DNA of 64,000 nt from Methylomonas subterranea (GTDB taxonomy: Bacteria; Pseudomonadota; Gammaproteobacteria; Methylococcales; Methylomonadaceae), in NCBI RefSeq assembly GCF_024505185.1, contig NZ_JANIBJ010000006.1, positions 62,001 to 126,000 of the forward strand, written 5' to 3'. This document shows, in pieces, positions 40,940-56,892 of the stretch. The stretch's first letter is position 1. Every line of letters begins with the position of its first letter. The notes below the pieces were generated by a model. It saw nothing but the letters and a program-made list of their open reading frames with translations, did not search any database and was not told the origin of the DNA. Position numbers and translations under genes: made by a program.

Positions 40940-40986
40940 GCTTATTCTTGGGCTTCACTCTATATTCGAACGGAATTCAGCAAACC

Positions 40987-41967
40987 ATGACCGATTTGAC
41001 TCCCGCGCAAACCGCGCTACAGCAGCTTAAAGACCACATCAACACTCAAATCATCGGCCAGGACGTTCTGGTCGAACGCATGTTGATCGCCTTGCTGGCC
41101 GACGGCCATTTGCTGGTGGAAGGCGCGCCCGGTTTGGCCAAAACCCGCGCCATCAACGTCTTGAGCCAAGGTTTGGAAGCCGATTTTCACCGGGTGCAGT
41201 TCACCCCGGACCTGTTGCCGGCCGATTTGACCGGTACCGAGATTTACCGCCCGCAACAAGGCAGCTTCGAATTCCAGAAGGGTCCGCTGTTTCATAATCT
41301 GATATTGGCCGACGAAATCAACCGGGCGCCGGCCAAGGTGCAGGCCGCTCTGCTGGAAGCCATGGCCGAGCGGCAAATCACGGTCGGCAAGGCCACCTAT
41401 CCACTGCCGCCCCTGTTCATGGTGATGGCCACGCAAAATCCGATCGAACAGGAAGGCACTTATCCGCTGCCGGAAGCCCAATTGGACCGCTTCCTGATGC
41501 ACCTGAAAATCGATTATCCCAACGCCGCGCATGAAAAAGCCATTCTGCATCTGGCTCGCGTCGAAGCGCGCGGCGCGCGGCAAGATAGCCTCGGCGCGGT
41601 CGAAAAAGTCAGCCAGCAAACTCTGTTCGCGGCCCGCGACGAAGTGCTGGACATTTACATGGCCGAAGCCCTGGAGCAGTATCTGCTGCAACTGGTATTG
41701 GCGACCCGCTCCCCGGCCGCCTACGGCGAAGAGCTGGCCAAGTGGTTGGAATACGGCGCCAGCCCCCGCGCCAGTATCGCCCTGGATCGTTGCGCCCGCG
41801 CCAGGGCCTGGCTGGAACGGCGCGATTTTGTCGATCCGGGCGATATTCAGGCCGTCGCTTACGATGTGCTGCGGCATCGCTTGATCTTATCCTACGAGGC
41901 CGAAGCCGAAGGTATCAGCGCCGATGACGTGATCAAGCAACTGATTTCGCGTATTCCGGTGCCCTGA
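40987..41967 (+). CDS. MoxR-family AAA+ ATPase
   Basis: 326 residues. Walker A GAPGLAKTR (near residue 43), Walker B LILADEINRAPAKVQAAL (near 105) and ATQNPIEQEGTYPLPEAQLDRF (near 140) are typical of MoxR. These ATPases work with VWA-domain proteins to activate or mature exported enzymes or to build envelope complexes. It opens the locus that continues with creA, DUF58, DUF4381 and VWA genes. Start at ATG 40987 is preferred to an in-frame codon at 40948, which gives an unrelated extension. Confidence 0.93.
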   Translation: MTDLTPAQTALQQLKDHINTQIIGQDVLVERMLIALLADGHLLVEGAPGLAKTRAINVLSQGLEADFHRVQFTPDLLPADLTGTEIYRPQQGSFEFQKGPLFHNLILADEINRAPAKVQAALLEAMAERQITVGKATYPLPPLFMVMATQNPIEQEGTYPLPEAQLDRFLMHLKIDYPNAAHEKAILHLARVEARGARQDSLGAVEKVSQQTLFAARDEVLDIYMAEALEQYLLQLVLATRSPAAYGEELAKWLEYGASPRASIALDRCARARAWLERRDFVDPGDIQAVAYDVLRHRLILSYEAEAEGISADDVIKQLISRIPVP

Positions 41968-42043
41968 GCCATATTCCGCGAAACCATGGCCGGCCCGCTT
42001 GCAATGGCCGCTTCCGCTTTCATTCCACCCCAAGGTAGCCCCG

Positions 42044-42610
42044 ATGAAAAAACTCCCGCTTAGGATTCCGCCCACAATAACTTCCGCATTCGGTTCCCTC
42101 CGCCTACGGAATAGGATTAGCTTGAGGGATATCAACAGGGAAGTTATATCGCACGCAATCCTTATCGCCTTGTTGTTGCCGACCGTTTCAGCCGTCAGAG
42201 CGGAAAACGTCGGTTGCGTGACCACCGCCTGGAAACTGCTGGGGGCCAATCACAAGGTTTGCGTGGAAGCCTTCGCCGACCCGAAAATTCCCGGCGTTAC
42301 CTGCCATGTCAGCCAGGCCAAGACCGGCGGCGTTTCCGGAACCCTCGGTTTGGCCGACGATCCGTCGCAATTTTCGTTGGCCTGCCGGCAAACCGGGCCT
42401 ATCCAACTGCCCGCCAATTTACCCAAGGACGAAGAAGTGTTTTCCGAAGGCACATCCTTTCTGTTCAAGGAAACACGGGTGATGCGCTTGTGGGACAACG
42501 CGCATAATACCTTGATCTATCTGGCCGTCAGCCGCAAGTTGATCGACGGCGCGCCGATGAACAGCATCTCCACCGTGCCGGTGATGCCCTGGGGACCCGG
42601 CGCGCCATGA
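42044..42610 (+). CDS. creA: CreA-family periplasmic protein
   Basis: 188 residues. After a rather long N-terminal region with a hydrophobic signal (about 40-56, ending VSAVRAEN), the mature part has the CreA pattern: VGCVTTAWKLLGANHKVCVEAF, DPKIPGVTCHVSQAKTGGVSGTLGLA and SLACRQTGPI, then LMRLWDNAHNTLIYLAVS-like sequence near the C terminus. Function is unknown in E. coli as well. It overlaps the DUF58 gene by 4 bp (ATGA), so it is translated with the MoxR locus, an uncommon placement. The true start may be downstream, because the signal peptide begins unusually late. Confidence 0.87.
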   Translation: MKKLPLRIPPTITSAFGSLRLRNRISLRDINREVISHAILIALLLPTVSAVRAENVGCVTTAWKLLGANHKVCVEAFADPKIPGVTCHVSQAKTGGVSGTLGLADDPSQFSLACRQTGPIQLPANLPKDEEVFSEGTSFLFKETRVMRLWDNAHNTLIYLAVSRKLIDGAPMNSISTVPVMPWGPGAP

Positions 42611-43524
42611 GCCCAAGCGCCGTGCCCGAAAACGATCGCGTCGCGGTCAGCCTGAAAACCCTGGTGGATTTGGCCAAACCGGCCGCCATGCTCAATATGC
42701 GCCCCAGGCAGATCCGGGCCGCGCAAAGTGGCAATTACCTTTCGCATTTCAAGGGCCGCGGCATGGCGTTTGCCGAAACCCGGCTGTACCAGCCCGGCGA
42801 CGATGTGCGGCGCATGGATTGGCGGGTCACCGCGCGTACCGACAAGCCGCACAGCAAGGTGTTTTGCGAGGAGCGCGAGCGGCCGCTGTTCATTTCGGTG
42901 GACTATCGCCCCGGCATGGCTTTTGCCACCCGAGGCGTATTCAAATCCGTGCAGGCCGCCAAATTGGCCGCTTTGCTGGCCTGGGCCGCCCTGCGGCGGG
43001 GCGACCGCATCGGCGGCCAGATATTCAGCGATGCCGGTTGCCTGGAATTGAGGCCGCGTAGCGGCAAAGCGGCTTTATTGCGTTTTTTCGATGCCTTGAC
43101 CCTGCCGGTTTACCCCGACGGCGGCGGCAATGATTTGACATCGGCCCTGGCCAGATTGCAACACCATGCCCATCCCGGTAGCCGGATTTACCTCATCAGC
43201 GATTTTCGCGGCCTGGACCCACTGGCTGAAAACCATTTGGCCCTGATAGCCCGGCATTGCGAGGTGGTTTTGCTGCAGATTTTCGATCCCTTGGAAAGCC
43301 GGCTGCCGGAAAAGGGTCGCTATCGTTTTACCGATAAAATCCGCGACATCCTGCTGGATACCGGCGAAAGCCGGCAAAGCCATGCCTATCAGCGCAGATT
43401 TCAGGAACGCCAGGCGCATTTGAAACAGCTGTGCCGTAAGCTGCGCATGACCTTGCTGACATGCGCTACCAATCAGTCGCCGATCGAAGTGTTAAGCGCC
43501 ACCCACGCGCAATGGACCGCCTGA
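42607..43524 (+). CDS. DUF58 domain protein of the MoxR locus
   Basis: 305 residues with the core DUF58 motif QPGDDVRRMDWRVTARTDKPHSKVF (near residue 60-84). The later part has FISVDYRPGMAF, a degenerate VWA-like strand. The protein is soluble, and these proteins accompany MoxR in nearly all such loci. It overlaps creA by 4 bp. Next comes a 60-bp gap and then the c-di-GMP protein, not the usual DUF4381 gene. Confidence 0.92.
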   Translation: MSPSAVPENDRVAVSLKTLVDLAKPAAMLNMRPRQIRAAQSGNYLSHFKGRGMAFAETRLYQPGDDVRRMDWRVTARTDKPHSKVFCEERERPLFISVDYRPGMAFATRGVFKSVQAAKLAALLAWAALRRGDRIGGQIFSDAGCLELRPRSGKAALLRFFDALTLPVYPDGGGNDLTSALARLQHHAHPGSRIYLISDFRGLDPLAENHLALIARHCEVVLLQIFDPLESRLPEKGRYRFTDKIRDILLDTGESRQSHAYQRRFQERQAHLKQLCRKLRMTLLTCATNQSPIEVLSATHAQWTA

Positions 43525-43584
43525 CGTTTGCCCCTATGTTGATGCTTCAGCCCGGCTGTTTGCCGGGCCGCGAAATACACCAGG

Positions 43585-46500
43585 ATGAATAAAGCCCGTT
43601 ATTGCCTTCGTCTGCTTTGCTTGACAACCTTGATAATCCTGGGCGGCTGGCTGGGGTTCATGACGGTGATTTACCCTGTCTATTCCAGCCCGCTATGGCC
43701 GCCGGCCGGTCTGAGTCTGGCGGCGTTGTTGATTTGGGGCCGCTCCGCCTTGCCGGCCGTTTTGCTGGGAGCCTTCGCCAATAACCTGTTGGTTGCCGGT
43801 CAAATGGTCGGCGACTTGCGTAGCGAATTCGTCGTCGCCGCCTTTTTGATCGGCACCGCCAGCGCCCTGCAAGCCCTGGTTGCCGCTCAGCTGTCGCAAA
43901 AATACCTGGGGCCCGGCGTGCCGGCCCTGGACGGACCGCGCGGCATTCTGCTGTTTTTTCTCTTGACCGGGCCGGTGGCGAATCTGGTTGCCGCCAGTTT
44001 GGGCGTGCTCTGCTTGTGGGGTTTCTCCATGACCCCCACGCATTTGCTGGGAGCCTCCTGGCTGCACTGGTGGATAGGCGACAGCCTGGGGGTATTCATC
44101 ATCAGTCCGTTGATGTTTTGTCAGTTTGCGCAACCCCGCAAGTTGTGGGCCGCCCGACGGCAATGGGTCGGCCTGCCCCTGTCCATCACCTTGCTGGCGC
44201 TGACCAGCATCTTCGTATTCGTCCAGCGGGCGGAACACGACCGCATTCAAATGGATTTCGACGGTCAGGCGCGAATGATCAGCCGGCAACTGATCGAATA
44301 CGGCGAGAACGCCGTAGACAACAGTCTGGCTTTACGCGATCTGTATATGGCCGCCGGCTCGGTAAATCGGCGCCAATTCGCCCGCTTTTCCCGGTCTTTA
44401 CTGACCAGACATCCCGAGCTGCAGGCATTGGAATGGCTGCCCAGGGTCGCGTTGACGGAACTGGCCGACTTCGAACGGCAGATACAAAACGAAGGTTTTG
44501 CCGATTTTAGAGTGGTCGAACGCGATGCCGACGACAAGTTGATTCCGGTTAAGAGACGGGCGGAGTATTTCCCCATTGCCTACGTCGAGCCCATGCGCGG
44601 CAACGAGCCGGCCTTCGGCTTGGATTCGGCCGCGACCGCCATTAGCCGCGCTTCCAAACAACAGGCACTCGCCAGCGGCCGGCCCAGCGTCAGTCAGACC
44701 CTGACGCTGATTCAGCGGCGGGATGCCGAAGCCAGCGTATTGCTGTCCATTCCGGTGTTTGCCGTCGACGGATTGAAGGGCTTCGTGTCGGCGGTGGTGT
44801 TACCGAGACGCTTGGTGGAAACCGCCTTGGCGGGGCTCGATTTAGAGGACTTTGCCGTAACCATAAGCGACGTTGCCGCCGCCGAAGGTCATTCCCTGTT
44901 GTATCGGAAAGATGTTGCCCATCCCGTTAGCGCCTACAGCAATATAAGGCCGTGGCAACAGGATTTTTTGTTCGCCGACCGGGTCTGGCGCATCGGCATC
45001 CTGCCGGATAGCGGTTTTCTCGATCGGCGCGGCTCCTGGCTGCCCTGGTTTACCCTGTTAAGCGGCATGGGTTTGACCAGTTTGTTCAGCATCTTGCTGC
45101 TGACCATCAGCGGTCGTGCCGCGCAAATCCAAACCCTGGTCGACCGCCGCACGCTGGACTTGCAAACCACCAACGCCGAATTGCAAGCCGCCGAACGGCA
45201 GGTGCGGGAATCGGAAGCCTATCTGCGCACTATTCTCAACTCGGTACCGGAATGCATCATGTTGATGACGCGGGACGGCGAATTGCTGAACATCAACCCG
45301 GCCGGACTGTCCATTCTGGGCGCCGACAGCCTGGGGCAGATCCAGGCGCTCAAACCGGTAAATTTACTGTTGCCCGATTACCGGAGCAGCTTTAGCCAGA
45401 CTATCGAACAGGTGTTTGCCGGCCATACCCGCTCGCTGCTGATGCAGATCGGCAATTTGAAGGGCGACATCCGCTGGCTGGAAAGCACCTCGGTGCCGGT
45501 GCGCAATGACGAAGGGCGCATCGTGGCGCTATTGAGCATGGCTAGGGACATCACCGAACGCAAGGCCGCCGACGACAGGCTCAAACTGGCCGCCAGGGTG
45601 TTCGGCGAAGCGCACGAAGGCATTTTGATTACCGATGCGGAAGCCACCATCATCGACGTCAACCCCACGTTTTGCGACATCACGGGATACAGCCGCGACG
45701 AAGCCATCGGCAAAAAGCCCAGCCTGCTGAAATCCGGTCGGCAAGAACCCGCTTTTTACCGGGAAATGTGGCAAACCCTGCTGACCAAGCTGCATTGGCA
45801 GGGCGAAGTCTGGAACCGCAAGAAAAACGGCGAGCTGTATGCGGAGCTGCTCAGTATCTCGGCGCTGTGCGACGACCGTGGGCAAATCATCTATTTCATC
45901 GGCCTGTTTTCCGACATCACCCAGATCAAGCAGCAACAGCAAATGTTGGAGCTAATGGCGCATTATGATCCATTGACGCGCTTGCCCAACCGCACGCTGT
46001 TCAGCGACCGCCTGTTGCAAGCCATCGCCCGCAGCAAGCGTGAAAAGTTGCTGCTGGCGGTTTGCTTTCTGGATCTGGACGGCTTCAAGCCCGTCAACGA
46101 TCAACTGGGGCACGGTGCCGGCGATCAGGTACTGATAGAGGTGGCCAAGCGGATCAAACAAAATTTGCGGGAAGAAGACACCGTTTCCCGCCACGGCGGC
46201 GATGAATTCGCCCTGTTGCTGACCGGTTTGCATAGCGTGGAAGAAATCAGTCAAACGCTGACCCGTATTCATAACGCCATAGCGGAAGCGTTTTTGATTG
46301 ACGGACAAAGTGTCAACATCGGCGCCAGTAGCGGGGTCAGCATATTCCCGCTGGACGATGCCGACGCCGATACCTTGCTGCGCCATGCCGATCAAGCCAT
46401 GTATCATGCCAAACTGACCGGCAAAAACCGTTTCCAGCTGTTCGACGCCAGCCAGGATCAATTGGTGGTCGATCATCACAATCAATTGCAGGAGCTGGAA

Positions 46501-47625
46501 ACAGCCTTTGCCAACCACGAGTTCTGTCTGTTTTATCAGCCCAAAATCAGTCTGAAGACGGGGCGGATCACCGGCGTCGAAGCCCTGATACGCTGGCAAC
46601 ATCCGAAAAAGGGGCTGGTATCGCCCTTGAATTTTCTGCCGGTGTTGGCGGCCACCGAGCTGGAAATAAAGCTGGGCAATTGGGTCATGGAACAGGCTTG
46701 GCTGCAACTGAATCACTGGCACCGGCAAGGTTTGAAAATCGAAGTCAGCGTCAACGTTTCCGCCTACCACCTGCTCTGGCCGGGATTTATCCCCTACTTG
46801 GAAAAGCTGTTGGCAAAACACCCGCGGATGGCCTCGCGCCATTTACAACTGGAAATTCTGGAAAGCACCGCCCTGGACGATCTGGCGGCGGTCAACCGTA
46901 TCGTTAAAACCTGCCATGAAGCATTGGGCATAGGCGCGGCCCTGGACGATTTCGGCACCGGTTATTCGTCATTGACCCATTTGCGCCACCTGCCGGTGGA
47001 TACGGTCAAAATCGACAGGAGCTTTGTGCGGGACATGCTTGACGATCCCGACGATTTTGCTATTGTGGAGACCGTTATCGGCCTGAGTCAGGCTTTCGGC
47101 AATCAGGTGGTCGCCGAAGGCGTGGAAACCGAGGAACAAGGTCTGGCCCTGCTGTTGTTGAACTGTTATGTCGCCCAGGGCTATGCGATTGCCAAACCCA
47201 TGCCGGCGGATGAAATGCTGGGCTGGATCCAACATTACCGGCCCTTTCCCATCTGGGAGACCTACGCAAACAAGGAAATGTCCGCCGATCAAACCCAGAT
47301 CGCCTTGCGCAGGCTTGATCTCCGGCAATGGCTGCGGCGGGTCGAGCAATGTCTGCACGGCAACCGCAACAACATGGCTTGCTGGCCCATCATGCAGCCG
47401 CGTAAAAGCCATTTCGGCCGTTGGCTCAGGCAAGCCCGGCAACAGGAACAATACAACAGGGTCTGGTTGCAACAAGTAACCGCCCTGCACGAACAACTGC
47501 TGCATAAGGGCGATACGTTGATGCAACAATTTTGGCAAGGCGAAGCGCAAACCGCCCGGGCGGGTTTCGCGGAACTGGAAAAGCTCCAACAACAACTAGA
47601 AGACTGTCTGACGGAAAATGCCTGA
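43585..47625 (+). CDS. MASE1-CHASE-PAS-PAS-GGDEF-EAL cyclic-di-GMP enzyme with CZB-like tail
   Basis: 1346 residues. Domains in order: MASE1 membrane sensor (about 1-210, six or more helices, LWPPAGLSLAALLIWG near 30), CHASE-like extracytoplasmic domain (about 215-470), TM (about 485-508), two PAS domains (about 540-660 and 665-785), GGDEF (about 790-950, intact RHGGDEFALLL near 870) and EAL (about 965-1215, EALIRW near 998, DDFGTGYSS and VAEGVET intact). Both catalytic domains appear active, so it could make and degrade c-di-GMP. The last 110 residues (SHFGRWL, then ALHEQLLH) resemble a zinc-binding CZB domain, but with Ser in place of the usual Cys. The final 8 bp overlap the DUF4381 gene, placing this regulator physically inside the MoxR/Bat operon. 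Confidence 0.93.
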   Translation: MNKARYCLRLLCLTTLIILGGWLGFMTVIYPVYSSPLWPPAGLSLAALLIWGRSALPAVLLGAFANNLLVAGQMVGDLRSEFVVAAFLIGTASALQALVAAQLSQKYLGPGVPALDGPRGILLFFLLTGPVANLVAASLGVLCLWGFSMTPTHLLGASWLHWWIGDSLGVFIISPLMFCQFAQPRKLWAARRQWVGLPLSITLLALTSIFVFVQRAEHDRIQMDFDGQARMISRQLIEYGENAVDNSLALRDLYMAAGSVNRRQFARFSRSLLTRHPELQALEWLPRVALTELADFERQIQNEGFADFRVVERDADDKLIPVKRRAEYFPIAYVEPMRGNEPAFGLDSAATAISRASKQQALASGRPSVSQTLTLIQRRDAEASVLLSIPVFAVDGLKGFVSAVVLPRRLVETALAGLDLEDFAVTISDVAAAEGHSLLYRKDVAHPVSAYSNIRPWQQDFLFADRVWRIGILPDSGFLDRRGSWLPWFTLLSGMGLTSLFSILLLTISGRAAQIQTLVDRRTLDLQTTNAELQAAERQVRESEAYLRTILNSVPECIMLMTRDGELLNINPAGLSILGADSLGQIQALKPVNLLLPDYRSSFSQTIEQVFAGHTRSLLMQIGNLKGDIRWLESTSVPVRNDEGRIVALLSMARDITERKAADDRLKLAARVFGEAHEGILITDAEATIIDVNPTFCDITGYSRDEAIGKKPSLLKSGRQEPAFYREMWQTLLTKLHWQGEVWNRKKNGELYAELLSISALCDDRGQIIYFIGLFSDITQIKQQQQMLELMAHYDPLTRLPNRTLFSDRLLQAIARSKREKLLLAVCFLDLDGFKPVNDQLGHGAGDQVLIEVAKRIKQNLREEDTVSRHGGDEFALLLTGLHSVEEISQTLTRIHNAIAEAFLIDGQSVNIGASSGVSIFPLDDADADTLLRHADQAMYHAKLTGKNRFQLFDASQDQLVVDHHNQLQELETAFANHEFCLFYQPKISLKTGRITGVEALIRWQHPKKGLVSPLNFLPVLAATELEIKLGNWVMEQAWLQLNHWHRQGLKIEVSVNVSAYHLLWPGFIPYLEKLLAKHPRMASRHLQLEILESTALDDLAAVNRIVKTCHEALGIGAALDDFGTGYSSLTHLRHLPVDTVKIDRSFVRDMLDDPDDFAIVETVIGLSQAFGNQVVAEGVETEEQGLALLLLNCYVAQGYAIAKPMPADEMLGWIQHYRPFPIWETYANKEMSADQTQIALRRLDLRQWLRRVEQCLHGNRNNMACWPIMQPRKSHFGRWLRQARQQEQYNRVWLQQVTALHEQLLHKGDTLMQQFWQGEAQTARAGFAELEKLQQQLEDCLTENA

Positions 47626-48097
47626 TTCAGCCATGGAACCCTTAGCCTTGAGAGACATCCGCTTGCCCGAGGACATAGGCTGGTGGCCGCCGGCGCCCGC
47701 TTGGTGGTTGCTGCCGTTGTTGCTGATTTTATTGATTTTGGTTGGCCGTTACGCATATCGCCGGCTGACCCGCAAAACCGCCGTCAAGCGCGCCCAAACC
47801 TTGCTGAACCGGATGCGCCGACAACAAAGCGATACCAAGCAGACCTTGACCGAGCTGTCGGCCTTGTTGCGCCGCGTCGCGATCGGCACGGAGCCGCGCG
47901 CCGGCGTGGCGCAATTGCACGGCCAAGCCTGGTTGGAGTATCTGGACCGCAAACTTCCGGACGCCCCGTTCAGCCAGGGTGTGGGCCGTTGTCTGGCCGA
48001 TAGTCATTATCGGCCGGCGCCGGCGGATGACGCCGACCTGGAAGCCTTGTTTGCCTTGTGCGAACGCTGGCTCAAGCAACGAGGTAAGTTGTCATGA
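47618..48097 (+). CDS. DUF4381 membrane protein of the MoxR/Bat locus
   Basis: 159 residues. The N terminus has the family pattern LRDIRLPEDIGWWPPAPAWWLLP, then one transmembrane helix (about 25-44) and a cytoplasmic helical part with LRRVAIGTEPRAGVAQLHGQAW. DUF4381 proteins are found only in MoxR/VWA gene clusters. It overlaps the upstream c-di-GMP gene by 8 bp and the next VWA gene by 4 bp. Confidence 0.9.
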   Translation: MPDSAMEPLALRDIRLPEDIGWWPPAPAWWLLPLLLILLILVGRYAYRRLTRKTAVKRAQTLLNRMRRQQSDTKQTLTELSALLRRVAIGTEPRAGVAQLHGQAWLEYLDRKLPDAPFSQGVGRCLADSHYRPAPADDADLEALFALCERWLKQRGKLS

Positions 48098-49080
48098 TGG
48101 CTTTTCAATGGCCCTGGCTGGGCTTGTTGCTGCCGTTGCCGTTTTTATTGCGCCGGCTGCTGCCCGCCAAACCGCAACCTCGGCAAGCCGCGCTGATCGT
48201 ACCTTTTCTGGACGAACTGCCCGCCGGCCGAGCGGACGGCTTGGGCAGTCAACAGCGCTGGCCGTTGTGGGTGGCCGGACTGGCCTGGATTTTTCTGCTG
48301 TTGGCTTGCTGCCGCCCGCAATGGCTGGGCGACCCCCTGGAACTGGCCGTAAGCGGCCGCGACCTGATGTTGGCGGTGGATGTGTCCGGCAGCATGGTGG
48401 AAAAAGATTTTGTGATTGACGACAAACGCTACGATCGCCTGACCGCCACCAAATATGTGGTGAGCGACTTTGTCAAACGCCGGGTGGGCGACCGGCTGGG
48501 TCTGATATTATTCGGTACCCGAGCCTATTTGCATGTGCCGTTGACTTTCGATCGCCAGACCGTGGAAACCCTGCTTAACGAAGCCTTTATCGGTATTACC
48601 GAGGACGAGCCGCAAACCTCCATCGGCGACGCTATCGGCTTGGCCGTCAAACGTCTGCAACATGAAAAAAGCGCCAGTCGGGTATTGATTTTACTGACCG
48701 ACGGTGCCAATACCGCCGGCGAATTGACGCCGCTAAAGGCCGCCGAGATTGCCGCCGAACACCAATTGAAAATCTACACCATAGGCGTGGGGGCGGACGA
48801 AATGCTGGTGCGCGGACTGTTCGGCACTCGCCGGGTCAACCCCTCCGCCGACCTGGATGAAAAAACCCTGCAAGCCATTGCCGATACCACCGGCGGCCGT
48901 TATTTCCGGGCCCGCAATACCGAAGAACTGGAGCAGATCTATCAAATTCTGGATCAACTGGAGCCGGTGGAAAAGGACAAGCAGTTTTTCCGTCCGCGCG
49001 CCGAGCTTTATGTCTGGCCGCTGGCCGTTGCCATGGCCTTGGTCGCGCTGTTGGCCGTCAGTCGTTTGAGGTTGCGCTGA
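48094..49080 (+). CDS. VWA-domain membrane protein (BatA-like)
   Basis: 328 residues. Two N-terminal hydrophobic segments (about 5-22 and 55-75) are followed by a VWA domain (about 85-285) with an intact MIDAS, DVSGSM near residue 97, and LLTDGANTAGE near 198. A last TM helix (about 306-322) closes the protein. It has the BatA layout. The upstream 4-bp overlap and the 1-bp spacing to the next VWA gene show tight coupling. Confidence 0.92.
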   Translation: MMAFQWPWLGLLLPLPFLLRRLLPAKPQPRQAALIVPFLDELPAGRADGLGSQQRWPLWVAGLAWIFLLLACCRPQWLGDPLELAVSGRDLMLAVDVSGSMVEKDFVIDDKRYDRLTATKYVVSDFVKRRVGDRLGLILFGTRAYLHVPLTFDRQTVETLLNEAFIGITEDEPQTSIGDAIGLAVKRLQHEKSASRVLILLTDGANTAGELTPLKAAEIAAEHQLKIYTIGVGADEMLVRGLFGTRRVNPSADLDEKTLQAIADTTGGRYFRARNTEELEQIYQILDQLEPVEKDKQFFRPRAELYVWPLAVAMALVALLAVSRLRLR

Positions 49081-49081
49081 A

Positions 49082-50890
49082 ATGTCGGCGGATTTTCATT
49101 TCCTCAGGCCATGGTGGTTGCTGAGCGTGGTGCCGGCAGCCATATTGCTGTACGCATTGATGCGCCACAAATACCAGCGCGGCGACTGGGCCGCTGTCTG
49201 CGACGCCGAACTGTTGCCCTTCATCCTGCAGGAAAAACCTCGGTCGATGCAAAGCGGGGGCTGGCTGGCGGCCGCTTTGGCTACTTTGTTGTGCATTCTG
49301 GCCTTGGCCGGCCCCACTTGGGAACGTTTACCGAGCCCGGCCTTTCGCAACGATTCCGCCTTGGTGATAGCGCTGGATTTATCCGAATCCATGAACGCCA
49401 CCGACATCAAACCCAGCCGCATCAGCCGGGCCCGCTACAAAATCAGCGATATTTTGCAACAGCGCAAGGACGGCCAAACCGCCTTGCTGGTATACAGCGG
49501 CGCGGCCTTTACCGTTACCCCTCTGACCACGGATACGGCCACCATCAATAGTCAGATAGAGGCCTTGACCACCGACATCATGCCCAGCACGGGCAGTAAC
49601 ACCGGCCTTGCCATCGAAAAAGCCGTCGAGTTGCTCAGGCAGGCCGGTTTGGCGCAAGGCGATATTCTGCTGGTGACCGACGGCGCCGATGCCGACAGCG
49701 CGAGCCGCGCCGGCCGCTTGTTGGGCGACTATCGCCTGTCTGTATTGGCTTTGGGCAGCCCGGAGGGCGCGCCCATTCCGCTGGCAGGCGGCGGTTTTTT
49801 GAAGGACGGGCGGGGCAATATCGTGGTGGCCGGTCTGGATAGCGCGGAACTGGCACAATTGGCGGCAAACGGGCGGGGGATTTTTCAGGCGGCAACGGCC
49901 GACGACAGCGATATCGAGCGATTGGGCGGGTTGTTTAACCAAGTGCAACAGAAGGCACAAAACCAAAAATCCGCTATGCTGCTGGAGCAATGGCGGGAAA
50001 TGGGGCCGTGGTTGTTGTTGCTGGTTCTGCCGTGGGCGGCATTGCGTTTCAGAAAAGGCTTGTTGACCCTTGCCCTGTTGTGCCTGCTGCCCTTACCCAG
50101 GCCGGCGGCCGCGCTGGATTGGCAAAGCCTGTGGCAAACCCCCGATCAACGCGGCCAACAGGCGTTTCGTCAGCAACAATACCGCCAAGCGGCGGAACAA
50201 TTCGACAACCCCGACTGGCGGGCCGCCGCCCAGTATAAAGCCGGCCAATTTCAGGAAGCGGCCGAGACCCTGAAAGACACGCAAAGCGCGAACGGTCACT
50301 ACAATCGCGGTAACGCCCTGGCCAAGGCCGGTCTTTTGGACGAGGCATTACAGGCTTATGGCGAAGCGCTCAGGCTGGATCCGAATCACGCCGATGCCCG
50401 GTACAACAAAGAATTGCTGGAAAAACAACAGCAAAAACAGCAAGAGCGGCAGCAGCGGGATAGTCAGTCTGCCGCGGAGCCGTCATCCGAACAACAGCAG
50501 GCGGATGAGCAAAAGGATCAAGCCGGCCAGCCCCAGTCCGCCCAAAATCAGCAGCAAGGCGGGCAGGCGGAGCAAGAACAGCAAAAACCCGATCAAAGCC
50601 AAGCCCAATCAGAAGAACAATCCGAACAAAGCCAAGGCAAGCAGCGGCAACCGGAACCGGAGGTCGACAAGCCCGACGACGCCCGCCGCGAGCCTAAAAA
50701 TCCCGAGCCGGAACAGTCCGCCGGCGACCAACCGGCCGCCCTGCCCGCCACCGAACAGGACGAAGCCCGCCGCGCCAGCGAACAGTTGTTAAAACGCATA
50801 CCCGACGAACCCACCGGATTGTTGAAGCGCAAGTTCAAATATCAATACGGCCAACGCGCCCCGCCTCCCCATAACGGTCCGGACTGGTAA
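49082..50890 (+). CDS. VWA-TPR membrane protein (BatB/BatC fusion-like)
   Basis: 602 residues. TM helices at about 12-28, 60-76 and 309-340 bracket a VWA domain (about 85-280) with MIDAS DLSESMN near 99 and VTDGADADS near 197. A TPR-like part follows (about 365-455, GHYNRGNALAKAGLLDEALQ, then AYGEALRLDPNHADARYNKE). After it comes a Gln/Glu/Pro-rich low-complexity segment (about 455-560) and a conserved end RIPDEPTGLLKRKFKYQYG. It joins the BatB and BatC functions in one chain, as in many Gammaproteobacteria. The usual next gene, batD, lies 6 kb further on, beyond an efflux cassette. Confidence 0.92.
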   Translation: MSADFHFLRPWWLLSVVPAAILLYALMRHKYQRGDWAAVCDAELLPFILQEKPRSMQSGGWLAAALATLLCILALAGPTWERLPSPAFRNDSALVIALDLSESMNATDIKPSRISRARYKISDILQQRKDGQTALLVYSGAAFTVTPLTTDTATINSQIEALTTDIMPSTGSNTGLAIEKAVELLRQAGLAQGDILLVTDGADADSASRAGRLLGDYRLSVLALGSPEGAPIPLAGGGFLKDGRGNIVVAGLDSAELAQLAANGRGIFQAATADDSDIERLGGLFNQVQQKAQNQKSAMLLEQWREMGPWLLLLVLPWAALRFRKGLLTLALLCLLPLPRPAAALDWQSLWQTPDQRGQQAFRQQQYRQAAEQFDNPDWRAAAQYKAGQFQEAAETLKDTQSANGHYNRGNALAKAGLLDEALQAYGEALRLDPNHADARYNKELLEKQQQKQQERQQRDSQSAAEPSSEQQQADEQKDQAGQPQSAQNQQQGGQAEQEQQKPDQSQAQSEEQSEQSQGKQRQPEPEVDKPDDARREPKNPEPEQSAGDQPAALPATEQDEARRASEQLLKRIPDEPTGLLKRKFKYQYGQRAPPPHNGPDW

Positions 50891-51102: not shown

Positions 51103-52212
51103 ATGAAAATCAAACAAATTCCCTGGCTTGCCTTGTGTTTAACCATCACAGCCTGCGGGCCGGAACAAACTGCTGAAACCAAACCCGAAAGTTACGAGGT
51201 CATCAGCCCCATCGTCAAAAATACCCCATATACCAGCGAGTACGTGGCTGAAATTCAGTCGGTCAGGTATGTCGAGGTCAGAAGCAAAATCAAGGGCTTT
51301 ATCGAAAAAAACTACGTCGACGAAGGTCAGACGGTCAAGAAGGGCCAGCTTTTGTTCAGCCTGAGTTTCATGGAGCACGAAAAGGAATTGCAAAAAGCCA
51401 ACGCGGACTATAAAGCCGCCATAGCCGATTTAAAGGCTTCGGAAGTTGAATTGGGCAATGTGAAGCGGCTGGTGGAAAAGAATATTGTTTCCAAAACCGA
51501 GCTGGAAGTATTGGAAGCAAAAATCAATGCCTTAAAAGCCAAGGTGGAAGAAGCTCAGGCCAACAAGGAACAGGTGGCTCTGCATCTGGATTTTTCGCAA
51601 ATCAAGGCGCCGTACGACGGCATCATCAACCGCATTCCGCATAAGGTCGGCAGTTTGATCGAGGAAGGCGACATGCTGACGTCCATTTCGGATAACAGCG
51701 AAATATTCGCCTATTTCCACCTGTCGGAAGTCGATTATCTGAATTACATTTCCGGCAACGAAGAAGAAATGAAAGTCGTCAGTTTGCGGCTGGCCAATAA
51801 CGAGCTGTATCCGTATAAAGGCAAAATCGAAATGATAGAAAGCGAGTTTGATCGCGAAACCGGCAATATTGCTTTCAGAGCGCGATTCCCCAACTCGGAC
51901 GGTATTTTGAAACACGGCGCCAACGGTAAAATTGTAATCAATAAAACGTTGAAACAGGCGCTGGTCATTCCGCAAAAATCCACCTTCGAGGTTCAAGATC
52001 AACTATATGTCTTCGTGGTCGACAAAAACAATGTTTTACACCAACGTAATATTGTTCCCAAAATGCGTTTTACCGACTATTACGCTATAGAATCTGGTTT
52101 AACGAAGGACGACAGAATTGTATTTGAAGGCGTGGATAGCGCCAAGGACGGAGAGAATATTGAACCTAAATTCGTCGATTTAGCGGCTTCCATGTCCGAA
52201 GTTCGTCAGTAA
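51103..52212 (+). CDS. RND efflux periplasmic adaptor lipoprotein
   Basis: 369 residues. Lipoprotein signal with lipobox TITAC at about residues 14-18. The barrel-sandwich half has VEVRSKIKGFIEKNYVDEGQTVKKGQLL (about 65-92), then the alpha hairpin (about 95-160), FSQIKAPYDGIINRIPHKVG, and a membrane-proximal domain ending near 350. The sequence is Lys/Glu/Ile-rich and more A+T-rich than the flanking bat genes, somewhat like Bacteroidetes-type adaptors. It is the first gene of the second tripartite cassette, 14 bp before the pump gene, after a 212-bp gap that must hold its promoter. Confidence 0.94.
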   Translation: MKIKQIPWLALCLTITACGPEQTAETKPESYEVISPIVKNTPYTSEYVAEIQSVRYVEVRSKIKGFIEKNYVDEGQTVKKGQLLFSLSFMEHEKELQKANADYKAAIADLKASEVELGNVKRLVEKNIVSKTELEVLEAKINALKAKVEEAQANKEQVALHLDFSQIKAPYDGIINRIPHKVGSLIEEGDMLTSISDNSEIFAYFHLSEVDYLNYISGNEEEMKVVSLRLANNELYPYKGKIEMIESEFDRETGNIAFRARFPNSDGILKHGANGKIVINKTLKQALVIPQKSTFEVQDQLYVFVVDKNNVLHQRNIVPKMRFTDYYAIESGLTKDDRIVFEGVDSAKDGENIEPKFVDLAASMSEVRQ

Positions 52213-52226
52213 GGGAGTACGCCAAT

Positions 52227-55200
52227 ATGACCGCTAAATTTATACACCGTCCGGTGCTGTCCATCGTTATCTCCGTGATCATTACCCTGATGGGGCTGAT
52301 TTCGCTGACACAGCTGCCTGTCACCCAATTTCCGGATATTGCTCCGCCCGAGGTCAGCGTGACCACCAAATTTACAGGAGCCAATGCACAAGTGGTAGTG
52401 AAAGCTGTATTGACGCCTCTGGAACGCGCCATCAACGGTGTTCCCGGTATGGCTTACATGTCGTCGGTTTCCGGCAACGATGGCAGTGGTCTGATCAGCA
52501 TCATTTTCAAACCCGGTACTAATCCGGATGTGGCGGCGGTGAACGTGCAGAACAGGGTTTCTTCCGCCATCGATGAGTTACCCGCTGAAGCGATAAAGGC
52601 GGGGGTAATTGTCGAAAAAGTGCAAAACGCCATGCTGCTTTATATCAATATTCTCAGCGATGATCCGGCGGCTAACGAAAAATTTCTTTACAACTTCACC
52701 GACATCAACATTCTGAAAGAGCTCAAACGAATAGAAGGTGTCGGTTTTGCGGAAATCCTGGGTGCCCGCAAGTATGCGATGCGAGTCTGGCTGAAACCCG
52801 ACAAACTGCTGATGTACAACATTTCGGCAACGGAAGTCATTGACAAGCTAAAGGCCCAAAACGTGGAGGCGGCACCCGGTAAAATCGGTGAAAGTTCCGG
52901 CAAAGAGGTGCAGTCCTTGCAATATGTGCTGCGTTACACCGGCAAGTACAACACTAAGGAAGGCTACGAAAATATCGTGTTATCGGGTAGCGATAATGGA
53001 GAAATCATTCGTCTCAAGGACGTTGCGGATATTGAACTGGATTCGCAAGGCTACGATGTAATTTCCAAAGAAAATGGCCGCCCATCCGCGGCGATTTTAC
53101 TTAAACAGCGGCCGGGGAGTAATGCCAAGCAGGTTATCGAGAACATCAAAACAACGATGGAAAAACTAAAAGGCGACACTTTCCCCCCCGGCATGACTTA
53201 CACCGTCAGTTATGACGTTTCCAAATTTCTGGATGCTTCCATCCACGAAGTGCTGAAAACTTTATTTGAAGCCTTTGTGCTGGTGGCGCTGGTGGTGTTC
53301 ATCTTCCTGCAGGACGTGCGGTCGACTGTGATTCCGATTATCGCCGTACCGGTTTCGCTAATCGGTACCTTCTTCTTCATGCAGTTGTTGGGGTTTTCGC
53401 TAAATCTCATTACATTGTTCGCCCTAGTATTGGCAATCGGTATCGTGGTCGATAACGCCATCGTGGTAGTGGAAGCGGTACATGCCAAAATGGAGCATTC
53501 GCACATGGGCCCCAAACGCGCGACCGAGCATGCCATGCGCGAAATCAGCGGCGCAATTATCGCCATTACCCTTGTGATGTCGGCGGTATTTTTACCGGTA
53601 TCGTTCATGGAGGGCCCGGAAGGCGTGTTTTACCGCCAATTTTCGCTGACCATGGCGATTTCGATTGTGTTATCGGGAGTCACGGCGCTCACATTGACGC
53701 CAGCCCTATGCGCAATGTTTCTGAAAAATCTGCACGACCACAATCATCATCAAGCTTCGAGGACGCAGAAGTTTTTCAGTGGTTTTAACCGCTGGTACGA
53801 CAAGTTGTCCGATCGGTATAAATCTCTTATTGCACTGATCGGCAACCGCAACGTGATCACATTTGCCATCTTGCTGGGCTTTTCGGTCGGCGCCGGCTTG
53901 ATTGGCCATGCCGTGCCTTCCGGATTTATCCCGGAAGAGGACCAAGGCACCATATATGCAAACATTACCACCCCATCTGGGGCGACCTTGGAGCGTACCG
54001 AGAAAGTTTCCGATGAAGTGCAACGCATCGCTTCCGAACTGGATTCCGTTGCCTCTGTCTCCAGTTTGGCTGGCTTTAGCTTGTTGTCGGAAGGTGTCGG
54101 CGCGGTATACGGCATGAACCTGATTAGTCTCAAAAATTGGGACGAACGCGAAGCCTCCGACAAGGACTTGATGAAAGTTTTAGAAGAAAAAACCCGCCAT
54201 ATCAAGGACGCCTCGGTCGAATTCTTTACACCTCCTCCAGTACCCGGTTACGGGAACTCGAGTGGCTTTGAAATGCGTTTGCTGGACAAGACTGGCTCGG
54301 ACGATCTGGAAAAGCTGCAAAAGGTTGCCCACGATTTCATCGATGCGCTTAATGCACGCCCCGAAATTACCAATGCCTTTACTACGTTCAACGCCAGTTT
54401 CCCGCAATTCATGTTGCATATAGACGGAGACAAGGCGGCGCAAAAAGGTGTCACGGCGGATAACGCCATGAGTACGCTGCAAACCCTGATAGGTAGCGAA
54501 TATGCTACAAATTTCATTCGTTTCGGGCAGCTTTACCGCGTCATGGTGCAGGCTTTACCGGAATATCGCGCGGCGCCGGAGGATTTATTAAAACTGTATA
54601 TCAAAAACGATGCCGGCCATATGGTGCCTTTCTCGTCTTTTTTGAGTATCGAGAAGGTTTACGGTCCCGAGCAGGTTACGCGATACAACATGTATACGTC
54701 GGCTTTGGTTAACGGGCAGCCCGCGCCAGGCTACAGTTCCGGTCAGGCCATTAGTGCCATCAAAGACGTTGCCGCGAATACATTACCCAAAGGCTTTGGT
54801 TACGACTGGGCCGGGTCGTCACGCGATCAGGCTAATGCCGGCAATCAAGCCATCTTTATCTTTTTGATCTGTTTAATCTTTGTTTATTTATTGCTTGCCG
54901 CGCAATATGAAAGCTTTTTATTGCCTTTTGCGGTGATTTTTTCCTTGCCTATAGGTATATTCGGCGCCTTGTGCTTCCTGATGCTGATGGGGCTGGAAAA
55001 CAATATCTACGCACAAATCGCCATGATCATGCTGATCGGTATTCTGGGTAAAAATGCCATCTTGATTATCGAGTTCGCCGCCTTGAAACATAAGGAAGGT
55101 AAATCGCCTTTTGAAGCGGCAGTCGAGGGCGGCGTGTTGCGCTTACGGCCGATTTTGATGACCTCGTTCGCCTTCATCGCCGGCTTGATACCGCTGATGT

Positions 55201-55385
55201 TCGCCTCGGGCGCCGGCGAGATCGGCAACAACACCATAGGCGCCGCGGCGGCGGGCGGCATGATTTTCGGCACCATTTTCGGCGTGATCATCATCCCTGG
55301 TTTATACGTGGCTTTTGCTGGCGTTCGGGATAAGCATCGTCACCACGGCAAGAAAGAAGAAGCCCCCTTTACCGAAACCTTTTAA
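52227..55385 (+). CDS. RND efflux pump inner-membrane transporter (HAE1/AcrB-type)
   Basis: 1052 residues. N-terminal TM1 region KFIHRPVLSIVISVIITLMGL, then LPVTQFPDIAPPEVSV, which is close to AcrB. The proton-relay helix has GIVVDNAIVVVEAV near residue 408, with one Asp and Asn in the DD/DN position. FMEGPEGVFYRQFSLTMAISI and the second TM block (LLLAAQYESFLLPFAVI near 890, then GKNAILIIEFA) are intact. It matches the AcrB/MexB group better than the pump at 2375-5476. Substrates unknown; part of an operon with 51103-52212 and 55392-56828. Confidence 0.96.
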   Translation: MTAKFIHRPVLSIVISVIITLMGLISLTQLPVTQFPDIAPPEVSVTTKFTGANAQVVVKAVLTPLERAINGVPGMAYMSSVSGNDGSGLISIIFKPGTNPDVAAVNVQNRVSSAIDELPAEAIKAGVIVEKVQNAMLLYINILSDDPAANEKFLYNFTDINILKELKRIEGVGFAEILGARKYAMRVWLKPDKLLMYNISATEVIDKLKAQNVEAAPGKIGESSGKEVQSLQYVLRYTGKYNTKEGYENIVLSGSDNGEIIRLKDVADIELDSQGYDVISKENGRPSAAILLKQRPGSNAKQVIENIKTTMEKLKGDTFPPGMTYTVSYDVSKFLDASIHEVLKTLFEAFVLVALVVFIFLQDVRSTVIPIIAVPVSLIGTFFFMQLLGFSLNLITLFALVLAIGIVVDNAIVVVEAVHAKMEHSHMGPKRATEHAMREISGAIIAITLVMSAVFLPVSFMEGPEGVFYRQFSLTMAISIVLSGVTALTLTPALCAMFLKNLHDHNHHQASRTQKFFSGFNRWYDKLSDRYKSLIALIGNRNVITFAILLGFSVGAGLIGHAVPSGFIPEEDQGTIYANITTPSGATLERTEKVSDEVQRIASELDSVASVSSLAGFSLLSEGVGAVYGMNLISLKNWDEREASDKDLMKVLEEKTRHIKDASVEFFTPPPVPGYGNSSGFEMRLLDKTGSDDLEKLQKVAHDFIDALNARPEITNAFTTFNASFPQFMLHIDGDKAAQKGVTADNAMSTLQTLIGSEYATNFIRFGQLYRVMVQALPEYRAAPEDLLKLYIKNDAGHMVPFSSFLSIEKVYGPEQVTRYNMYTSALVNGQPAPGYSSGQAISAIKDVAANTLPKGFGYDWAGSSRDQANAGNQAIFIFLICLIFVYLLLAAQYESFLLPFAVIFSLPIGIFGALCFLMLMGLENNIYAQIAMIMLIGILGKNAILIIEFAALKHKEGKSPFEAAVEGGVLRLRPILMTSFAFIAGLIPLMFASGAGEIGNNTIGAAAAGGMIFGTIFGVIIIPGLYVAFAGVRDKHRHHGKKEEAPFTETF

Positions 55386-55391
55386 TTATTC

Positions 55392-56828
55392 ATGAAGCAT
55401 AGCTATTTATCATCCTTGGTTGTTTCCCTGCTGGTGTTTTCCATCCAGGGTTGCGGCCTGAATACGGACCTGTTCATTCGCGAGCAGGCCATCCCGGCGG
55501 CTTTTCCCGCCTCGCAGGATAAGCCGGAGGCCGCAAAGGTGGCCGATATCAACTGGAGGGAATATTTTGCCGACCCCGATTTGCTGGCGTTGATCGATAC
55601 GGCAGTCGGTAATAATCCCGATATGCAGATTGCCTTGCAACGCATAGAAACCGCCCGCTCCAGCGTGAAACTGGCCAACGGCGCCATGTTGCCGAAAGTC
55701 GAGATGCTGGTCGGCGGCAGCATGCGCAAGTTCGGCTTGTATACCATGGATGGGGCCGGTAACGATTCGACCCAAATTACCCCCGGCAATACCGTGCCTG
55801 AGCATTTGCCCGATCTGTTCATCGGCCTGCAGTCTTCCTGGGAAATCGATGTCTGGGGCAAATTGGAAAATCAGCGCAAGGCCGCCGCCGCCGAATATTT
55901 GGCCAGTATCGAAGGCACCCATTTCGTGATATCCAATCTGGTTTCGGATGTGGCGATTCACTATAACGACTTGCTGGCGCTGGACAGTGAACTGGAGTTT
56001 GTCCGCCAGACCATAGGCAAGCAGCGGGAAGCTCTGGAAGTCATCAAGCTGCAAAAGGAAGCCGGCAGGGCGAATGAATTGGCGGTGCAGCAATTTCTGG
56101 CGGAATTGTTGAACATGCAGGTGATGGAGGCCAATGTGCTGCAGCAAATCACCGAAACCGAAAACAGGATCAATTATTTGTTGGGGCGTTTTCCGCAAGC
56201 CATAGCGCGCTCCAAAACCGGGTTTTTCAGGGAAATGCCGCACGGGATGTCGGTGGGCGTGCCTTCGCAATTACTGGAAAACCGTCCCGATATTCGGGCG
56301 GCCGAATTTCAGATCGAAGCCAGCAAATTCGATCTGCAAGCCGCCAAAGCCGCTTTTTATCCGAATTTCAATATTACCGCCACCTTGGGTTTTCAGGCCT
56401 TCGATCCGCAGTTTTTATTTACCTCGCCGGCATCGATTGCCTATTCGGTGATGGGGACATTAATCGCGCCGCTGATCAATATGAAAGCCCTGGAAGCACG
56501 CTTCAATACCGCGCAAGCCAATCAATTGACGGCCATGTACAATTATCAAAAAACCATTTTGAACGCGTATGTGGAAGTCGCCAACCAATTGGCCAATATC
56601 AAAAACCTACAACAAATCAATAGCCTGAAAAAGCAGCAAAGCGAGGTTTTGAAGGATTCCGTCGATGTGTCCAAGGAGTTATACCGCTCCGCCAAGGCCA
56701 GTTATCTGGAAGTCCTGATCGCGCAACAGAGTGCCTTGCAATCGAATATCGATTTAATCAACGTCACCAAGCAACAGCGGATAGCCAGAATCAATTTGTA
56801 CAAGGCACTGGGCGGTGGATGGACATAA
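55392..56828 (+). CDS. RND efflux outer-membrane factor lipoprotein (NodT/TolC family)
   Basis: 478 residues with lipobox SIQGC at about 18-22. LQSSWEIDVWGKL in the first half and LLENRPDIRAAEFQIEASKFDLQAAKAAFYP opening the second (about 294-324) give the duplicated TolC-like fold. Starts 6 bp after the pump gene. Completes the adaptor-pump-channel set, so this efflux system is self-contained. Confidence 0.94.
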   Translation: MKHSYLSSLVVSLLVFSIQGCGLNTDLFIREQAIPAAFPASQDKPEAAKVADINWREYFADPDLLALIDTAVGNNPDMQIALQRIETARSSVKLANGAMLPKVEMLVGGSMRKFGLYTMDGAGNDSTQITPGNTVPEHLPDLFIGLQSSWEIDVWGKLENQRKAAAAEYLASIEGTHFVISNLVSDVAIHYNDLLALDSELEFVRQTIGKQREALEVIKLQKEAGRANELAVQQFLAELLNMQVMEANVLQQITETENRINYLLGRFPQAIARSKTGFFREMPHGMSVGVPSQLLENRPDIRAAEFQIEASKFDLQAAKAAFYPNFNITATLGFQAFDPQFLFTSPASIAYSVMGTLIAPLINMKALEARFNTAQANQLTAMYNYQKTILNAYVEVANQLANIKNLQQINSLKKQQSEVLKDSVDVSKELYRSAKASYLEVLIAQQSALQSNIDLINVTKQQRIARINLYKALGGGWT

Positions 56829-56892
56829 GATACCGCCGCGTTGTTGGCCCCCATAAGCGAAATATCGATCCGTGCGGGAAGAGATACTGAAG

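Follow-up and report, generated by a model that had tools for sequence, protein, structure and literature searches.

A cyclic di-GMP enzyme gene with an eroded CZB-derived tail in the MoxR/Bat operon of Methylomonas

Introduction

The role of MoxR/Bat operons (Bat, Bacteroides aerotolerance) is unsettled; deletion of Bat in Leptospira biflexa gave no oxidative phenotype, according to the available part of PMC3557215. Pairs of MoxR and von Willebrand factor A (vWA) proteins are described as chaperone and co-chaperone in the available part of PMC7159879, which also places GGDEF domains, on rare occasions, in the MoxR-vWA systems of the VMAP type. A link between cyclic di-GMP (c-di-GMP) and MoxR/vWA proteins therefore has precedent. 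Among the papers listed by searches of the PMC literature on MoxR, DUF58, Bat, Methylomonas and c-di-GMP, none was seen to describe a c-di-GMP gene within a Bat operon. Such a gene is the subject of this report: it lies at 43585-47625 of a 64,000-nucleotide stretch of Methylomonas DNA (the window), between the DUF58 and DUF4381 genes of a MoxR/Bat operon, and is called the GE gene below. An earlier reading of the window from its letters alone (the sequence-only reading) knew of no description of such a link, which holds for Bat operons as far as our search reached, though not for MoxR-vWA systems at large.

The GE protein ends in a tail related to the CZB domain, the zinc-binding domain of the diguanylate cyclase DgcZ. 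The available part of PMC8262984 gives H22 and C52 as DgcZ ligands, describes the CZB cysteine as approximately 100% conserved, and treats EAL-containing diguanylate cyclases with a CZB domain as a known subgroup. The combination of EAL and CZB is thus already known, and the loss of the zinc site is the unusual part of GE. With moderate confidence, we read GE as an operon-borne, co-expressed c-di-GMP enzyme that carries a metal-free CZB relic. The genus was taken as Methylomonas from a named relative, Methylomonas sp. WSC-6 (locus L009), whose GE protein is 80% identical. Genomes, loci, families and genera are cited below by G, L, f and g numbers where they need to be told apart.

Domain architecture and catalytic sites

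The GE gene runs on the plus strand from an ATG at 43585 to a stop at 47625 and encodes 1346 residues. Pfam matches ordered its domains as MASE1-CHASE-PAS-PAS-GGDEF-EAL, followed by the CZB-derived tail. The MASE1 membrane sensor domain (residues 10-211, 43612-44217; PF05231, 57 bits) is followed by a CHASE domain expected to be periplasmic (residues 259-440, 44359-44904; PF03924, 134 bits), two PAS domains (PAS_4, residues 551-660, and PAS_9, residues 678-780, together at 45235-45924; PF08448 and PF13426), the GGDEF domain (residues 792-949, 45958-46431; PF00990, 157 bits), the EAL domain (residues 969-1205, 46489-47199; PF00563, 226 bits) and the helical tail (residues ~1225-1346, 47257-47622), which was delimited from Pfam, NCBIfam, alignments, a PDB profile search and a structural model. 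Orthologues agree with this gene call, and the Pfam matches of the gene and its neighbours bear out the earlier proposal that a protein of this architecture is encoded inside a MoxR/Bat operon. All genes of the operon lie on one strand, in the order MoxR-CreA-DUF58-GE-DUF4381-VWA-VWA/TPR-(HlyD/RND/OEP)-BatD, which includes the MoxR, DUF58, VWA, VWA-TPR and BatD series that defines a MoxR/Bat operon.

In an alignment of 12 orthologues, of which two have incomplete N-terminal ends, the GGDEF residues D830, R862, D865 and G871-G872-D873-E874-F875, which include the metal-site aspartate and the RxxD I-site, were invariant. The same was true of E999, N1057, E1090, D1121, D1122, K1142, E1178 and Q1198 in the EAL domain; these positions (EAL, Asn, DDFG, Lys, Glu, Gln) were placed by their equivalents in RocR. 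With all site residues of both domains in place, the GE protein is expected to have both predicted activities, diguanylate cyclase and phosphodiesterase.

The gene is under purifying selection. The ratio of nonsynonymous to synonymous substitution rates (dN/dS) was 0.05-0.18 for the whole gene in seven pairs, the more distant of which approach saturation at synonymous sites; for the tail it was 0.10-0.20 in five pairs, 0.32 in one with few changes, and undefined in one. The guanine-plus-cytosine (GC) content of GE is 57.5%, against 59-62% in the MoxR, DUF58, DUF4381 and VWA genes, and both its GC content and that of its third codon positions resemble those of the Bat operon, unlike those of the adaptor and RND genes farther downstream. 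No foreign GC signature was seen in GE in this comparison with its operon neighbours.

Linkage and descent within Methylomonas

A DUF4381 match was present in 35 of the 37 genus genomes, and in 25 of these 35 the EAL-tail part of GE lay directly upstream of DUF4381 on the same strand. In G397, which has no DUF4381 match, GE adjoins DUF58 at a contig end. The survey of relatives' MoxR loci for GGDEF/EAL genes proposed by the sequence-only reading thus found the gene well spread, and not absent from all relatives, the outcome that reading had named as fatal to itself. The possibility that GE is unique to the genome of the window was rejected on the same counts.

The GE tree, rooted on L107, and a tree of the concatenated operon genes gave the same branching for the ten taxa that they share. 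Given these congruent trees and the genus-limited spread, the simplest account is a single gain of GE in an ancestor of most Methylomonas, followed by inheritance with the operon. One genus member without GE, G126, was placed in the operon tree with a support of 0.30, which fits either a gain of GE after its divergence or a loss in it. Of the link between c-di-GMP and MoxR/Bat envelope maturation that had been raised earlier, the gene linkage is genuine and has been kept by descent in most of the genus genomes searched; physical or functional coupling is a hypothesis, plausible in the functional case.

Spacing and transcription at the junction

The sequence-only reading had let GE overlap the DUF4381 gene by 8 bp, an overlap that depends on ATG 47618 as the start of DUF4381; the next in-frame ATG is at 47633. 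DUF4381 matches began at query residues 2-6 in 33 of the 34 other genus rows, and 47633 corresponds to residue 6. Two genus rows (G386 and G389) contain a TAA, and in L009, the closest of the relatives read, the frame is closed by a TAA that precedes the equivalent of ATG 47633 by two codons. An ATG occupies the place of 47633 in all 12 GE-holding loci, window included, although several relatives also have possible upstream starts. The 8-bp overlap probably reflects a wrongly chosen start codon, with ATG 47633 the better start (DUF4381 gene at 47633-48097, plus strand; PF14316, 150 bits; start chosen by comparison).

With the start chosen by homology, the gap from the GE stop to DUF4381 is 7 nt in the window and 2-27 nt across the 12 loci. 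Upstream, the DUF58 stop is separated from the first following GE ATG by 5-24 nt in nine relatives, compared with 60 nt in the window. A scan restricted to sigma-70-like sites found no promoter-like site in the DUF58-GE gap. The tight spacing fits a single mRNA for DUF58, GE and DUF4381, and co-expression of GE with the MoxR/Bat genes is likely on this arrangement. The 60-nt gap of the window also holds a 7-bp inverted repeat with a 5-base loop (43550-43568), which the terminator scan did not list.

Such spacing says nothing about a protein complex. The sequence-only reading had concluded from the overlap that GE is translated with a MoxR-VWA complex; gene overlap or not, the arrangement would argue for co-transcription or translational coupling instead. 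The MoxR/VWA chaperone pair might still assemble or remodel GE as its client or partner, or the c-di-GMP of GE might act on a Bat component, and this agrees with the embedding of GE between two operon genes, with the description of MoxR/vWA as chaperone and co-chaperone, and with the rare GGDEF domains of VMAP systems (available part of PMC7159879). Set against this are a GE orthologue in G076 that does not lie beside MoxR and the enzymes next to Bat operons in other families, described below, which carry a REC domain in place of MASE1-CHASE. Judged from gene arrangement, we consider a direct complex improbable.

The junction as an insertion-tolerant site

Several observations weigh against the favoured reading of GE. 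GE is missing from the locus in 10 of the 35 genus genomes: DUF58 stands next to DUF4381 in four of them (G126, G398, G400 and G404), the two genes are on different contigs in five (G383, G393, G394, G402 and G403), and in G388 the Bat operon is split, with DUF58 (C1:966945-967829) and DUF4381 (C1:1309428-1309880) 342 kb apart. Outside the genus, a GGDEF/EAL gene was found between DUF58 and DUF4381 in none of 66 family loci (69 read) and none of 76 class loci (80 read), these denominators being the loci with both genes on the stretch read. Both samples were non-random, and contig ends cut some loci: 80 family loci came from the 144 of 151 genomes that matched, and 80 class loci, from 75 genomes that include one of the same order, came from the top of a list in which 118 of 232 genomes matched. 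In both samples loci were picked by rank, and some near contig ends were skipped. A full-length GE orthologue with 70% identity in the GGDEF domain lies outside the MoxR locus of G076, a member of another genus, beside ANTAR and GAF genes, and the 3' part of another lies elsewhere in G142. DUF58-DUF4381 gaps of more than 400 nt occurred in 12 of 76 family loci and in none of 76 class loci; nine of these gaps are the GE gene, and the other three hold unrelated genes, namely a patatin-like gene (L066, 6571-9717), a PIN-domain gene with a small partner (L074, 9005-9492) and a Bro-N gene on the opposite strand (L105, 8942-9592). Finally, the sigma-70-like scan returned 4 sites against 3.6 in shuffled sequence, and thus no excess, and one plus-strand promoter-like site lies inside GE (47039-47066), upstream of DUF4381.

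The copies in G076 and G142 indicate that the enzyme gene can occur away from MoxR/Bat, and the unrelated inserts suggest that the junction tolerates insertion. A GE-type enzyme as a general partner of MoxR/Bat was rejected on the 142 loci outside the genus.

The tolerance of the junction is the chief argument for a second explanation, in which GE landed there by chance, gained a promoter, has no functional tie to the operon, and was kept since the enzyme itself is useful. The split operon of G388 and the orthologues away from MoxR fit this explanation, as do the 102 matches to the GE protein within the source genome, which show such enzymes to be plentiful, and the recurrences beside BatD in other families, which do not reach significance when counted by families (P about 0.05 to 0.11). 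However, GE has been retained with close spacing over a divergence of 53-60% protein identity, and enzyme genes of this kind stand at the opposite end of the operon in two further lineages, of which one spans six genera. Chance insertion ranks next after the co-expressed enzyme, as a real possibility that we hold only tentatively.

The C-terminal tail derives from a CZB domain

The last 110 residues of GE had been described in the sequence-only reading as resembling a zinc-sensing CZB domain with Ser for Cys. The CZB ancestry and the serine, at residue 1275, stand; the tail scores below the Pfam cut-off, and three of the four ligands are lost, not only the cysteine. The isolated tail of the window gave 18.9 bits with Pfam CZB (cut-off 29.4) and matched the E. 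coli DgcZ model PRK09894 over its CZB part at E 1.1e-5, far below the cut-off of that model. Orthologue tails ranged from no CZB match (L031) to 27.7 bits (L036, the best orthologue at the locus), and the tails of paralogues formed a graded series of scores up to 49 bits. When a profile of 31 tails (12 operon orthologues and 19 others) was searched against the PDB, DgcZ (3t9o) came first at E 1.5e-4; since paralogues whose CZB domains are complete contributed to the profile, this match shows the ancestry of the series rather than that of the window tail alone. A PDB search with the single tail sequence found nothing relevant.

The structural model of the tail is helical (mean predicted local distance difference test score 86). 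Superimposed on 3t9o_B it gave Z 11.2 and a root-mean-square deviation (rmsd) of 3.0 over 110 aligned residues with 18% identity, at rank 10 behind nine other chains. Foldseek returned 343 matches at E 10 or less and none at 0.001, with 3t9o at rank 45 (E 2.2). Since no Foldseek match was significant, the argument for CZB ancestry does not draw on the fold. Common ancestry is supported by the sequence comparisons, from which we conclude that the tail descends from a CZB domain.

H22, C52, H79 and H83, the zinc ligands of DgcZ, align with L1246, S1275, H1302 and L1306 of GE, so that one ligand of four is kept; H1307 is one residue off the expected position of the last histidine. The window tail thus lacks the set of three histidines and one cysteine that makes the CZB zinc site, and we did not file it as a zinc sensor. 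The first histidine is absent from all 12 orthologues. The cysteine position holds Ser in the window, L009 and L027, Thr in seven loci (L028-L034), and Cys in L036 and L037; these last two, and also L107, keep both later histidines. By parsimony, the cysteine would have been lost twice, separately, on the GE tree.

The retained H1302, the near-miss of H1307, and the Cys with both later His in L036, L037 and L107 could be taken to mean that the tail still works as a zinc or redox sensor with the altered ligands S1275, H1302 and H1307. The replacement of Cys by Ser or Thr in 10 of 12 orthologues, at a position approximately 100% conserved among CZB domains (available part of PMC8262984), together with the loss of the first histidine in all 12, makes a working sensor of this kind most improbable. 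A serine at the CZB cysteine position was also seen in a second type of GGDEF-EAL protein, of about 1552 residues, encoded at other genus loci (L111:794-5449, L124:1666-6324 and L119:1737-6389).

c-di-GMP genes beside Bat operons elsewhere

Among the 80 class loci, four from two families carry a GGDEF gene directly after BatD on the same strand. The enzymes are of the REC-PAS-GGDEF-EAL type in family f80 (L179:13123-15498 and L191:13410-15674) and of the REC-PAS-GGDEF type in family f54 (L188:11642-12934 and L189:13309-14595). Opposite-strand GGDEF or EAL genes lie near the Bat operon in L140, L203 and L204. Across the 36 genomes of f80, the enzyme directly follows BatD in 14 of the 23 with a BatD match, covering six genera; the two matches are 5-252 nt apart except in G439, where the BatD match stops 199 residues short and the gap is 697 nt. 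Stop codons interrupt the enzyme match in G406 and G408, and several of the nine other BatD-bearing f80 genomes end near contig ends. Both f54 genomes have the enzyme directly after BatD.

The f80 and f54 enzymes are 29% identical over 449 columns, and the f80 enzyme is 30% identical to GE over 475. The recruitment of GE appears separate from those beside BatD because its sensory parts differ (MASE1-CHASE versus REC), and the f54 and f80 recruitments were probably separate from each other because the f54 enzyme has no EAL domain. A GGDEF/EAL gene stands right after BatD in 4 of the 62 class loci that leave 1 kb or more of space there and in none of 36 family loci outside the genus, whereas flank density predicts 0.36 in the 62 loci. 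The excess has P 0.0005 when the four loci are counted, 0.05 when the two families are counted, and 0.11 for two in all 98 loci; by families it is suggestive, and we do not claim it as significant.

Four loci of genus g15 have a same-strand GGDEF-EAL gene located 4-5 kb upstream of MoxR (L046:1454-4159, L079:15135-17849, L091:14644-17355 and L096:14667-17411); that of L046 encodes a PAS-GGDEF-EAL protein with a CZB domain above the cut-off (48 bits). Vibrio cholerae may offer a further case, with a GGDEF gene a few genes away from VCA0168. The name BatD is used for VCA0168 in the available part of PMC10127744.

Other genes of the operon

The operon opens with the MoxR AAA+ ATPase (40948-41967; AAA_3, 212 bits; AAA_lid_2, 77 bits), followed by a CreA family protein (41999-42610; PF05981, 178 bits) as an extra gene before DUF58 (42607-43524; PF01882, 142 bits). 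The CreA gene overlaps that of DUF58 by 4 nt, and among the relatives' MoxR loci read only L027 also has a match at this place. Downstream of DUF4381 come a VWA protein of the BatA type (48094-49080; VWA, 73 bits; VWA_BatA_Lepto, 156 bits, below its cut-off of 380), a VWA-TPR protein of the BatB/BatC type (49082-50890; VWA_2 and TPR_1) and, after the insert that follows, BatD (56872-58572; PF13584, 90.5 bits). The insert at 51103-56828 encodes, by domain matches, an HlyD-type adaptor, an AcrB-type resistance-nodulation-division (RND) pump and an OEP outer-membrane protein; its GC content of 46-52% is lower than that of the Bat genes, and an adaptor or RND match precedes BatD in 10 of the 12 genus loci read (L009 and L027-L037), L027 and L035 being the exceptions. 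All these genes are on the plus strand.

Discussion

Counted in favour of the co-expressed enzyme are the linkage in 25 of 35 genomes, the tight spacing, the congruent trees, the dN/dS values, the intact sites, the DUF58-GE gap, in which no promoter-like site was found, and the BatD-side enzymes. On this reading, a c-di-GMP enzyme that is anchored in the membrane and intact in both catalytic domains would have entered the DUF58/DUF4381 junction in the ancestor of most Methylomonas. Read from the operon mRNA, GE would rise and fall in amount with the MoxR/Bat proteins, its MASE1-CHASE region and PAS pair most likely sensing an envelope or respiratory signal, and it would set c-di-GMP whenever the envelope machine is made. 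The tie between GE and MoxR/Bat would be co-expression, not a stable complex. The tail, a CZB relic presumed to lack DgcZ-style zinc binding, may now serve as a dimerising or relay helical bundle.

A broader claim, which we regard as rather unlikely when taken whole, is that Bat operons recruited c-di-GMP enzymes at least three times in the class (at the Methylomonas junction and after BatD in two families) because c-di-GMP level and Bat-dependent envelope assembly are coupled, and that the zinc site of the Methylomonas CZB domain was lost on two or more occasions while the domain remained under selection, so that CZB bundles could signal without metal. New here are the REC-PAS-GGDEF(-EAL) genes after BatD in two families. 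GE and these two apparently separate recruitments offer a testable handle on whether c-di-GMP controls or reports Bat envelope work, and the zinc-site loss under purifying selection is a natural experiment on metal-free CZB helical bundles.

GE shares its PAS-GGDEF-EAL core with the GGDEF-EAL phosphodiesterases DibA, PRK10060 and DosP. Its best NCBIfam score, 576 bits, was with DibA, and it stays below all three cut-offs (980, 782 and 857, respectively); unlike them, it has MASE1-CHASE ahead of this core and a CZB-derived tail after it. The CZB domain of E. coli DgcZ, the best PDB match of the tail profile, precedes GGDEF according to the available part of PMC8262984, whereas the GE tail is C-terminal, after EAL. 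GGDEF-EAL proteins with a CZB domain above the cut-off occur among family paralogues (e.g. L122 and L046), from which GE differs by its eroded zinc site and its location in a Bat operon. The DosC middle domain, CZB-like by its Pfam name, is likewise a helical bundle of a c-di-GMP enzyme (4zvc_B versus the tail: Z 10.7, rmsd 2.6, 108 aligned), although it presumably occupies a different place in its protein, and PF21118, its Pfam family, had no match in the tail or in the whole GE protein at E 0.1. VMAP-type ternary conflict systems share with the window a MoxR and vWA pair and, rarely, a GGDEF domain, in a different MoxR/vWA setting (available part of PMC7159879). The closest described system remains the MoxR/Bat operon itself, with MoxR, DUF58, DUF4381, two VWA proteins, one with TPR, and BatD in the same order as in the other loci read; the operon of the window differs from other Bat operons by the c-di-GMP enzyme at the DUF58/DUF4381 junction, the RND trio before BatD, and CreA after MoxR.

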